A DNA stretch of 20,806 bases, taken from a virus. This document shows, piece by piece, positions 2,678-16,626 of this stretch (the stretch's first letter is position 1; each line of letters opens with the position of its first letter). The position numbers and the translations under genes were made by a program. The notes under the pieces were generated by a model, which was given only the letters and a program-made list of their open reading frames with translations, ran no database searches and was not told where the DNA came from. The stretch is from IMG/VR virus record IMGVR_UViG_3300023174_002944, positions 1-20,806 of that record; one strand, written 5' to 3'.

Positions 2678-3553
2678 ATGAAGAAAGCACTACTAGCATT
2701 ACTATCAATTGCAATTGCATTTACAGCACTTGCACCAGCACAAGCACAAGATGAAAGAGTCTTAGCAATTATTGACTCTGCTATTAACTCAAGTAAGTTT
2801 CCATCAATCATTCAAGAAGCATGTTTTACAGCAAACGATAAGTTTGCTTTAAATGTTGGTGGTTCTACACTATGTCCAAATGGTAGCACATTCATGGAAG
2901 GCAAAGGAGCAGCAGGCAATACAGTCTGGCCAGCATCTGTCAATAATCCAGTTTTTCATGGAGATGCAATGGTTAAGTCTGCATTAACAGTTGATCCTAA
3001 CCTTAAGATTGTATTTGTAAGAATCTCTAATTTAGGCAAAGATGGTGGAACTAACCAATTCTCTAATAGAACAATTGAATTAGCAATAGATTGGGTTTCA
3101 AAGAATGCAGCAAAGTACAGTATTGATGCTGTTTCAATTAGTCAATCAAACATGGATTTTAATAGATGCCTAAATGATGCTGTTACTGTTGAGGCTATTG
3201 CATCTTTAACATCTAACAATGTTCCAGTCTTTGTTGCAACAGGAAATGATAAACTACGAGACAAAGTTGGATTCCCTGCATGTGTTAATGGTGCAATCGG
3301 TGTTGGAGCACTAGGCAATGCAACACAACTAGAGACAGCAACCAATACGGGTCCTGGACTTGACATGGTTGCACCTGGCAAGGCAAGCATTACTAAGTAT
3401 AATGGTTCACCAACAGACACTGCTGGTAGTTCTGCAGCAACCGCAGTTTCAGCAGCATCATATGTAAAACGCAACACCTTTAAAACTTTTGGAGAGTATC
3501 TAACATCTCTTCCAAAGATTTTAATTGGTACTGCATCATATATTCGTAACTAA
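2678..3553 (+). CDS. Secreted subtilisin-like (S8) serine protease
   Basis: A 291-residue protein. The start at 2678 is chosen over an earlier in-frame codon because AAGGAG lies 7 nt before it and because it yields a classical signal peptide (MKK, hydrophobic residues 4-18, then APAQAQ with cleavage near residues 23-24). The mature part matches the S8 fold: Asp33 in LAIIDSAI, His94 in FHGDAMV, oxyanion Asn190 in VFVATGND and Ser252 in GSSAAT. Motifs around Asp, His and Ser are degenerate (no DTG, no GTSMA). Likely roles are digestion of host surface protein during exit or processing of a neighbour virion protein. There is no clear propeptide. Family assignment is good; catalytic competence is uncertain. 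Confidence 0.8.
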   Translation: MKKALLALLSIAIAFTALAPAQAQDERVLAIIDSAINSSKFPSIIQEACFTANDKFALNVGGSTLCPNGSTFMEGKGAAGNTVWPASVNNPVFHGDAMVKSALTVDPNLKIVFVRISNLGKDGGTNQFSNRTIELAIDWVSKNAAKYSIDAVSISQSNMDFNRCLNDAVTVEAIASLTSNNVPVFVATGNDKLRDKVGFPACVNGAIGVGALGNATQLETATNTGPGLDMVAPGKASITKYNGSPTDTAGSSAATAVSAASYVKRNTFKTFGEYLTSLPKILIGTASYIRN

Positions 3554-3588: not shown

Positions 3589-3661
3589 TGCCCTATAACT
3601 CAGATGGTAGAGTGCCGAACTGTTAATTCGGATGTCCCTGGATCGAGGCCAGGTGGGGCAG
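3589..3661 (+). tRNA. tRNA-Asn (GTT)
   Basis: Full cloverleaf: acceptor TGCCCTA/TGGGGCA with one U-G pair, D arm ACTC/GAGT, anticodon stem CCGAA/TTCGG with loop CTGTTAA (GTT at 3622-3624), T stem CCTGG/CCAGG, discriminator G. CCA is not encoded. The T loop reads ATCGAGG, so position 54 is A rather than the usual T. It lies between the protease and endolysin genes. Confidence 0.93.
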
Positions 3662-3663
3662 CG

Positions 3664-3672
3664 TGATATAAT
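3664..3672 (+). promoter_or_regulatory. Extended -10 promoter for the endolysin gene
   Basis: TGATATAAT fits the extended -10 form TGnTATAAT. It directly follows the tRNA 3' end. No convincing -35 is seen within the tRNA. The predicted start near 3679 leaves a leader of about 22 nt with AAGGAGG ahead of the ATG at 3702. Confidence 0.6.
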
Positions 3673-14437: not shown

Positions 14438-14521
14438 GTCCCACACAGGACCTTAGTGATGGATTAGTTACCCATTGGATAGAGACCGTGGCGCAAGTCA
14501 GGTGAATTGCCTGTGTGGGGC
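14438..14521 (+). ncRNA. Candidate 84-nt closed-stem small RNA
   Basis: GTCCCACACAGG (14438-14449) pairs with CCTGTGTGGGGC (14510-14521) over 12 bp with one G-U. The interior holds ATGG/CCAT (around 14459-14480) and CAGG/CCTG (enclosing a 7-nt TGAATTG loop, which competes with the long stem). An extended -10 box places the 5' end at the stem foot. CCTTAATATTTT follows the stem. It has no convincing anticodon arm, so it is not called a tRNA, and I recognise no family. Confidence 0.5.
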
Positions 14522-14550: not shown

Positions 14551-14823
14551 ATGACTGACAAAGAGTTAGACACCTATAATAAGCAGCAGTATAAAAAGAT
14601 GCTTGCTAAGATAAAAGAGGATTCTGGCTGTGTGGATTGTGGAATCAGTAATCATATTATCTTAGACTTTGATCACATAAGGGACAAAAAATACAATGTA
14701 TCCAGAATGATCCATGATGGTTTTTCATGGAGGGCTATCAAGAAAGAGATTGAAAAGTGTGAGGTAGTTTGCGCCAATTGCCACAGGGTAAGGACTTACA
14801 ACAGGCTTAACGGCATGGTATAA
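14551..14823 (+). CDS. HNH endonuclease-like protein
   Basis: A 90-residue protein with Cys27 and Cys30 (CVDCG), the DFDHI core (Asp41-His42), and CANCHR (Cys74, Cys77, His78), giving a zinc-braced HNH/beta-beta-alpha metal fold. WRAIKKEIEKCEVVCANCHR is typical of small stand-alone actinobacterial HNH proteins. Phage versions may be packaging nucleases or homing enzymes; nothing adjacent is a terminase gene, so a free-standing homing or nicking role is possible. The start at 14551 is chosen from the -10 spacing. Confidence 0.82.
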   Translation: MTDKELDTYNKQQYKKMLAKIKEDSGCVDCGISNHIILDFDHIRDKKYNVSRMIHDGFSWRAIKKEIEKCEVVCANCHRVRTYNRLNGMV

Positions 14824-15509: not shown

Positions 15510-16256
15510 ATGTCAAAGTATAACAAACTATACTTTTTACATATTCCAAAGACAGGTGGAAGGTTTTTAACAAAATATATACTTCGCCCAATGGAAAATA
15601 TATTAAAAGATAATGGCATAGAACTTATAAAATCTCCAGAAGATATGAGACAGCATGCTGGTTGGCCTGAATGGATAGATGATCAAACATATGTAATTAC
15701 AGTTTTTAGAGAGCCTTGTGAGTTTTTTGTTAGTTCTGTTTGTCATGCAGTAGCAGGGAAAAAGGGTTTGATAGATCAAGAAAAATGGCATATCATAAAA
15801 GAAGAAGGAAAAGATCTTCGTGTTGATAAACAAGAGTTATATGACACGTTGTTGCGTTGGGAATATATTAAAGATTTTCAATCTCAAAACTTTGCTTTAA
15901 GTCCAGATCCTGAAAAAATGTCTATACTGCATGAGTCTATGGCTAAGCATAATAAAAATGAATTATTTGACAAAGAAGAAATTTATAAAAGAGTCAAAAG
16001 AGTTAATTTAATGATCAGACATAAAGATCTAAACGCTATGGATTACACATTGCTGGTTAAAAAAATATCAGAAGACTTAGGCGTAGAACTAGATATTGAT
16101 TTATCAGAAATTGATAAAACATATTTTAAGAATGATGCTTCAAAAAGACTGTTTGACTCTTTAACTCAAAGCGAAAAAGATCTAGTCCTTGAAAGTTTTA
16201 CTCTAGATAAAAAGATATACGAAGACGATTCTTTATTCTGGAATCCTGCTAAATAA
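15510..16256 (+). CDS. Sulfotransferase family protein, copy 2
   Basis: A 248-residue protein with HIPKTGG (residues 11-17) as the 5'-PAPS loop and TVFREPCEFFVSSV (64-77) as the 3'-phosphate site with Arg67 and Ser75/76. It is longer than copy 1 (194 residues), with an extended helical middle rich in Lys and Glu. A His pair at 146 and 151 follows but the catalytic base cannot be assigned. Similarity to copy 1 is limited to these motifs, so the two probably act on different acceptors. It is the last plus-strand gene before the convergent boundary. Confidence 0.75.
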   Translation: MSKYNKLYFLHIPKTGGRFLTKYILRPMENILKDNGIELIKSPEDMRQHAGWPEWIDDQTYVITVFREPCEFFVSSVCHAVAGKKGLIDQEKWHIIKEEGKDLRVDKQELYDTLLRWEYIKDFQSQNFALSPDPEKMSILHESMAKHNKNELFDKEEIYKRVKRVNLMIRHKDLNAMDYTLLVKKISEDLGVELDIDLSEIDKTYFKNDASKRLFDSLTQSEKDLVLESFTLDKKIYEDDSLFWNPAK

Positions 16257-16284
16257 ATAAATAGTTTGTCATACAAAATTTAGG

Positions 16285-16347
16285 AGGGTGTGGTGTTGCA
16301 ACATAAAGCATATATGTTTCCCGACACATACCCTTTAACCACACCCT
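16285..16347 (-). ncRNA. Candidate 63-nt closed-stem small RNA
   Basis: On the minus strand AGGGTGTGGT opens and ACCACACCCT closes a perfect 10-bp stem, with an inner AACATA/TATGTT hairpin (7-nt loop). An extended -10 box (TGCTATAAT) lies so that transcription begins at the stem foot, and CCTAAATTTT follows the 3' arm. Design and 3' flank resemble the RNA at 14438-14521. It could equally be a bidirectional terminator between the convergent arms, although neither side has a good T run. Confidence 0.45.
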
Positions 16348-16354
16348 TGCTACC

Positions 16355-16363
16355 ATTATAGCA
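16355..16363 (-). promoter_or_regulatory. Extended -10 box of the minus-strand small RNA
   Basis: Minus-strand TGCTATAAT; its first two bases overlap the 3' end of the tRNA-Arg gene. A start 7 nt beyond the hexamer coincides with the 5' base of the 10-bp stem. Confidence 0.5.
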
Positions 16364-16433
16364 TCCCTGGTAGGATTCGAACCTACGGCCTACACCTTAG
16401 AAGGGTGTCACTCTTCCACTGAGTTACAGAGAT
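16362..16433 (-). tRNA. tRNA-Arg (TCT)
   Basis: Complete cloverleaf on the minus strand: acceptor ATCTCTG/CAGGGAT with one U-G pair, D arm starting TAACTCAGTGG, anticodon stem ACACC/GGTGT with loop CTTCTAA (TCT at 16399-16401), T arm GTAGG/CCTAC with TTCGAAT, discriminator G, no encoded CCA. It reads AGA codons, which dominate several genes in this window. Confidence 0.93.
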
Positions 16434-16437
16434 CTAG

Positions 16438-16512
16438 TACACCAGGTAGGACTTGAACCTACGAATAGCCGAATTATGAGTTCGGTGCCTTAACCAACTT
16501 GGCTACTGGTGC
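16438..16512 (-). tRNA. tRNA with CAT anticodon (Met or Ile2)
   Basis: Cloverleaf on the minus strand: acceptor GCACCAG/CTGGTGT starting with a G-U pair, D arm with AGTTGGTTAAGGC, anticodon stem CCGAA/TTCGG and loop CTCATAA (CAT at 16476-16478), T arm GTAGG/CCTAC with TTCAAGT, discriminator A. It may be elongator Met or a lysidine-modified Ile2 reading ATA; frequent ATA codons in the enzyme genes make the latter plausible. Only 4 nt separate it from tRNA-Arg. Confidence 0.9.
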
Positions 16513-16521
16513 AAACAAGAT

Positions 16522-16626
16522 TTACAGATTAAAGAAAAGAAATAGTACAAGAACACCAAGACATACAAAAAGAAACTTAACTTTCTTAGTCTTTGGCCAT
16601 TCATCTGGCACTCTTACTTCATTCAT
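16522..16626 (-). CDS. 34-residue single-TM microprotein
   Basis: GGAGG lies 5 nt before the ATG. A charged N-terminus (MNEVRVPDEWPKTKKVK) precedes a strongly hydrophobic helix (about 18-34) that runs to the C-terminus. Ends 9 nt before the tRNA pair, presumably in one transcript. No family recognised. Confidence 0.6.
   Translation of the reverse strand: MNEVRVPDEWPKTKKVKFLFVCLGVLVLFLFFNL

Follow-up and report, generated by a model that had tools for sequence, protein, structure and literature searches.

Few small RNAs of phages have been characterised. In phage T4, the tRNA region gives rise to two small RNAs without a known role, RNAC and RNAD (PMC3014915), both of which are classed as late RNAs (PMC9697503). 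ROOL and GOLLD are structured RNAs of phages and prophages, which are often located near tRNA islands and whose function is also unknown (PMC12286853). Both pairs are the nearest analogues, in setting, of the hairpin RNA reported here. T4 is unrelated to the present phage, as is its host, and the likeness to RNAC and RNAD concerns the location: the hairpin RNA directly follows a tRNA gene in 38 of 59 genomic contexts, and in one contig (L232) it sits inside a tRNA array, between tRNA-Asp and tRNA-Glu. Unlike RNAC and RNAD, most copies have an extended -10 box of their own, and a tRNA neighbour is lacking in 21 of the 59 contexts. Many GOLLD RNAs exceed 800 nt, whereas the hairpin RNA is a single rod of about 70 nt, and this size together with the lack of an Rfam match sets it apart from both GOLLD and ROOL. 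Judging from sequence comparison, the hairpin very probably represents a genuine RNA gene, whose structured product is about 70 letters long; it is present once per genome in about 100 related, uncultured phages of freshwater actinobacteria. The reading favoured here, with a probability of roughly 0.62, is that this small RNA gene of a freshwater actinophage is free-standing.

The window, i.e., the whole stretch of DNA analysed, is an entire virus record of 20.8 kb (IMGVR_UViG_3300023174_002944). It encodes an Hsp20 protein, a CHAP endolysin, a tryptophan-halogenase-like protein, an HNH protein and a WhiB factor, together with three tRNAs (tRNA-Arg, tRNA-Met, and tRNA-Asn). Since WhiB is described as occurring only in actinobacteria and has served to assign freshwater actinophages (PMC6802176), the host is taken to be an actinobacterium. 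The features of the locus, in the order of transcription, are as follows.

16437..16512, minus strand: tRNA-Met (CAT), the second tRNA of a pair with tRNA-Arg
16361..16433, minus strand: tRNA-Arg (TCT), the upstream same-strand neighbour of the hairpin RNA
16355..16363, minus strand: extended -10 element TGCTATAAT, by direct reading, overlapping the 3' end of tRNA-Arg
16275..16348, minus strand: small structured RNA, predicted transcript of about 74 nt with its tail (fold, covariation, and a covariance model match of 90.8 bits)
16338..16347, minus strand: 5' arm of P1, AGGGTGTGGT, beginning at the predicted transcription start (covariation)
16324..16337, minus strand: 5' arm of P2 (fold and covariation)
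16318..16323, minus strand: apical loop CGGGAA, unchanged across 44 aligned sequences, which were collected with patterns requiring GGGAAAC
16304..16317, minus strand: 3' arm of P2 (fold and covariation)
16295..16303, minus strand: unpaired 3' bulge of 9 nt, UGUUGCAAC, between P1 and P2, containing the palindrome GUUGCAAC
16285..16294, minus strand: 3' arm of P1, ACCACACCCT, pairing 10/10 with AGGGTGTGGT (covariation)
16275..16284, minus strand: tail CCTAAATTTT, the final conserved stretch before the neighbours diverge

A preliminary description of this DNA had placed an extended -10 box on the minus strand, with a start 7 nt further on, at the foot of a perfect stem, and this holds: the RNA is predicted to start at A16348/A16347, 7 nt past TGCTATAAT, where the 10-bp stem begins with all pairs formed. 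A TATAAT-type box is found in 56 of the 59 distinct contexts as classified by script, and an IMG/VR scan without a promoter requirement returned almost only loci that had already been found with the promoter in the pattern. The copy in L232 is without a -10 box, while in L024, as in some further contexts, the upstream gene ends in a stop codon that overlaps the box. As a promoter search of the locus found neither a -35-type nor a canonical -35/-10 promoter, the hairpin RNA would be served by an extended -10 promoter. Three other TG-TATAAT boxes of the window, at 14816 (plus strand), 19230 and 20606 (both minus strand), are followed about 6 nt later by an ATG, which suggests that their mRNAs would be leaderless and lends support to initiation some 7 nt beyond boxes of this kind. 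The gene for tRNA-Asn (3589-3662), too, has a promoter-like box at its 3' end: TGATATAAT (3664-3672, plus strand) follows it immediately and precedes the CHAP endolysin gene.

The fold of the hairpin RNA has an energy of -29.6 kcal/mol (z = -3.7 against dinucleotide shuffles). Folding of four representatives leaves the palindrome GUUGCAAC at least 87% unpaired in every class tested, and two copies of it could pair with a computed energy of -12.9 kcal/mol for the 10-mer. It is invariant in all three classes seen; as the patterns by which members were collected required both GGGAAAC and GUUGCAAC, the invariance of loop and palindrome is partly built into the search. The palindrome, as TGTTGCAACA, is present again at 3232-3241 (plus strand) within the subtilase gene, where it provides codons for VAT, probably by chance.

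The preliminary description had also proposed that an RNA family could be defined in phage contigs, and for the hairpin RNA this is borne out by about 100 IMG/VR stretches, covariation and a held-out match. Orthologous loci reached via the neighbouring proteins carry the same element as the window, in one case (L010) at a distance of over 2 kb from tRNA-Arg. When IMG/VR was scanned with patterns, 60 stretches were found with the core, 97 with the core plus TATAAT, and 99 with the core without the promoter. These fall into two main classes, GGGTGTGGTT...AACACCACACCC and GTGACAATATAGT...ACTATATTGTCC, plus a third with AGAAGGTAGG/CCTACCTTCT (L011 and L232). The 44 distinct sequences align nearly without gaps over a P1 of 11 pairs, a P2 of 14 pairs in which mismatches are tolerated, the 6-nt loop and the 9-nt 3' bulge. 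Paired cells amount to 86.9% across this alignment, and compensatory changes on both sides are seen in 19 of the 25 pairs. The score for covariation reaches 0.413 versus 0.191 (sd 0.009) in shuffled and at most 0.186 in slid alignments; such scores are inflated by relatedness, and kinship-robust measures (pairs, pair types) also beat all shuffles. The covariance model R1 recovered the held-out class-3 element of L011, which has a different closing stem, at 55.7 bits (E 9e-13). Regarding the strand, the balance of G-U against A-C cells (58 to 42) is a weak guide, many of the A-C cells being contributed by class 1, in which the outermost column, 4-68, does not pair.

By Rfam 15, the hairpin RNA matches no known RNA family. 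A scan of the window with all 4227 Rfam families at the gathering threshold returned only tRNA, and permissive scans gave nothing relevant, the best E value being 0.084, to an unrelated flaviviral element, and, for a class-3 copy, 0.32. Classes 1 and 2 had no credible match among 50,697 INPHARED phage records, the lone chance match having an E of 9, and no mention of the RNA was found in the literature on actinophage katG/WhiB and on mycobacteriophage small RNAs. Host copies were sought in 84,980 prokaryote genomes with a pattern that did not cover class 2, and the five stretches returned were taken as chance since their printed flanks show no matching stems. L082 and L109 were dismissed as chance matches.

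With regard to the second RNA of the window, RNA A (14438-14521, plus strand, CAGGACCTTAGNGATGGNTTAGTTACCCATTG...), it is conserved in at least 120 IMG/VR stretches and its closing stem covaries, and it has neither an Rfam match nor, queried in the same BLAST, a credible one in INPHARED. It is followed by the HNH gene, which has its own -10 box. The preliminary description was right that both stems contain GTGTGG/CCACAC and that the two RNAs share a design: each has a TG-TAYAAT box, a closed covarying stem with a start near its foot, and a CCTAA-like tail. The proposal that they form a single family fails, as model R1 has no match at 14438-14521 and model R2 none at the hairpin RNA, both at E<=10. 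RNA A is thus a different conserved RNA, distinguished by another interior sequence and structure and by its place before the HNH gene. Nor does the suggested interaction through complementary arms survive in the class-2 phages that carry both RNAs (L076, L077, L080, L086, and L103): the stem of the hairpin RNA there reads GACAATATAGT, RNA A keeps (C)CCACACAGG, and the arm-arm duplex falls from -10.2 to -3.4 and -6.1 kcal/mol.

For the neighbourhood, a script sorted 61 contexts, two of which were dropped because, with no promoter and with unrelated neighbours, they resemble the chance matches of the genome scan; many of the remaining 59 are related and hence are not independent events. The upstream neighbour is tRNA-Arg in 34, tRNA-Asp in three, tRNA-Glu in one, and a protein gene in 21. 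Downstream are found katG in 16, ahpC in 13, convergent genes in about 10, tRNA-Glu in two, and several others. Over 23 selected contexts, identity climbs at the TG of the -10 box from an upstream level of about 0.31-0.34, remains high until about 20 nt beyond GTTGCAAC, and then falls to about 0.28. The cassette from this TG through the CCTAANTTTT tail is thus sharply delimited, whether its neighbours are tRNA, katG, ahpC or convergent genes. Exactly one copy is present per record (15 records of 13-115 kb), and conservation stays full where no co-directional gene lies downstream (the window, L002, L019, L036, and L076). On sequence grounds, the sharp borders, the single copy and the varied neighbours favour a free-standing small RNA over either a terminator or a leader of an mRNA.

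The bidirectional terminator that the preliminary description had named as the refuting alternative belongs to a wider explanation, in which the hairpin shapes transcripts without any partner, whether as a terminator, a 5' protective hairpin or a processing stem parting tRNA units from their neighbours. The position between convergent units in the window, the closed stem at the predicted start and the T-rich tail would suit such a role, but class-2 stems are A+T-rich and followed by no long T run, and the element precedes co-directional genes and tRNA-Glu in relatives or sits in a tRNA array. Moreover, no terminator-like site was detected in 16200-16560 on either strand with a tool limited to loops of 3-8 nt, to which P1 itself is invisible, and a pure stem would not need the invariance of loop and bulge letters. 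A partnerless element is therefore improbable, and a bidirectional terminator is disfavoured. On the other side, a canonical terminator at the end of the RNA was not found, which counts against a free-standing RNA. That the locus is instead a short gene for a peptide of about 20 residues has in its favour one forward frame that is open in 42 of the 44 sequences (pattern SGN...CCNT). Coding was rejected as very improbable, since codon-position entropy is flat (0.54, 0.48, and 0.58) and without codon periodicity, changes are mostly non-synonymous, neither start nor stop codons are conserved, and L105 is frame-shifted, base pairing being kept throughout. A chance hairpin beside a chance -10 box is hardly conceivable: the window contains two boxes with an 8-bp closed stem 5-9 nt further on, against 0.47 expected in shuffles (maximum 4), which is weak alone, but this reading is refuted by the covariation and opposed by the roughly 100 contigs and the held-out match.

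Another explanation, itself unlikely, is that the element acts in cis as a riboswitch-like or protein-binding 5' UTR leader of phage oxidative-stress genes, mainly katG (catalase-peroxidase) and the gene for the AhpC peroxiredoxin, other copies being relics or cases of gene loss. In 29 of the 59 contexts, but in none of the others, about 35-50 nt separate the element from a downstream katG or ahpC, which has a plausible ribosome site and for which no second promoter is apparent; the element is directly upstream in 22 of 80 katG loci, and Pfam supports the peroxidase and AhpC identities. However, it is absent from 57 of the 80 katG loci and from 75 of 80 ahpC loci, so that an obligate leader is unsupported; in the one further katG locus (L232) the gene is 2.1 kb away, and five ahpC loci have the element. 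The whole record is without it in 23 of 25 katG and 25 of 25 ahpC phage records, at the level of possibly incomplete contigs. Conservation that stays full without a co-directional downstream gene, or between the two tRNA genes of L232, also speaks against a leader. Furthermore, katG and ahpC genes without the element are found directly after tRNAs too, with short leaders, and a shared insertion site beside tRNA genes can therefore explain much of the association. Still, katG or ahpC lies on the same strand in about half of the contexts with little room for a further promoter, so the RNA must there also be, or overlap, the mRNA leader, which weighs against the free-standing reading. A dual role, in which an independent trans-acting RNA would in addition be a built-in leader tuning katG/ahpC wherever it lies upstream, the palindrome GUUGCAAC mediating dimerisation or partner binding, is a doubtful extension of this; if true, it would mean RNA-based control of the oxidative-stress defence of a phage.

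As a free-standing small RNA, the hairpin RNA would be transcribed by the host polymerase from the extended -10 box 7 nt upstream. The transcript would fold as a rod with P1 outside, P2 inside, the CGGGAA loop at its tip and the bulge UGUUGCAAC on the 3' side, a structure that covariation supports. With its 5' end buried in P1, it is expected to be stable and to accumulate alongside the phage tRNAs. It may then act in trans, the invariant loop and the palindromic bulge being offered to a partner, for which a host protein, a host RNA or a second copy of the same RNA are candidates. The family is compact, with clear covariation, two invariant putative recognition sites, its own promoter box, and phages assigned to actinobacteria by WhiB, and its small size makes the RNA convenient to synthesise, to probe and to employ as bait in the search for a host partner. 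Since the RNA is often adjacent to phage peroxidase genes, it may be linked to the defence against reactive oxygen that phages have been proposed to mediate (PMC6802176).

As a separate observation, phage katG and ahpC genes (L227-L306 and L307-L386) are often located immediately 3' of tRNA genes, especially tRNA-Arg(TCT), a position that looks like a hot spot for the insertion of oxidative-stress genes. Just upstream of ahpC in L322, L323, and L327 there is a third element with a closed stem, AGGGTAAGATAAGAAAGTTGGTGCAAATCCAACCTACCCTACTAAC, whose UGCAAAU hairpin resembles a T-loop. The L327 copy has no Rfam match, and that of L322 begins 7 nt after a TATAAT box.
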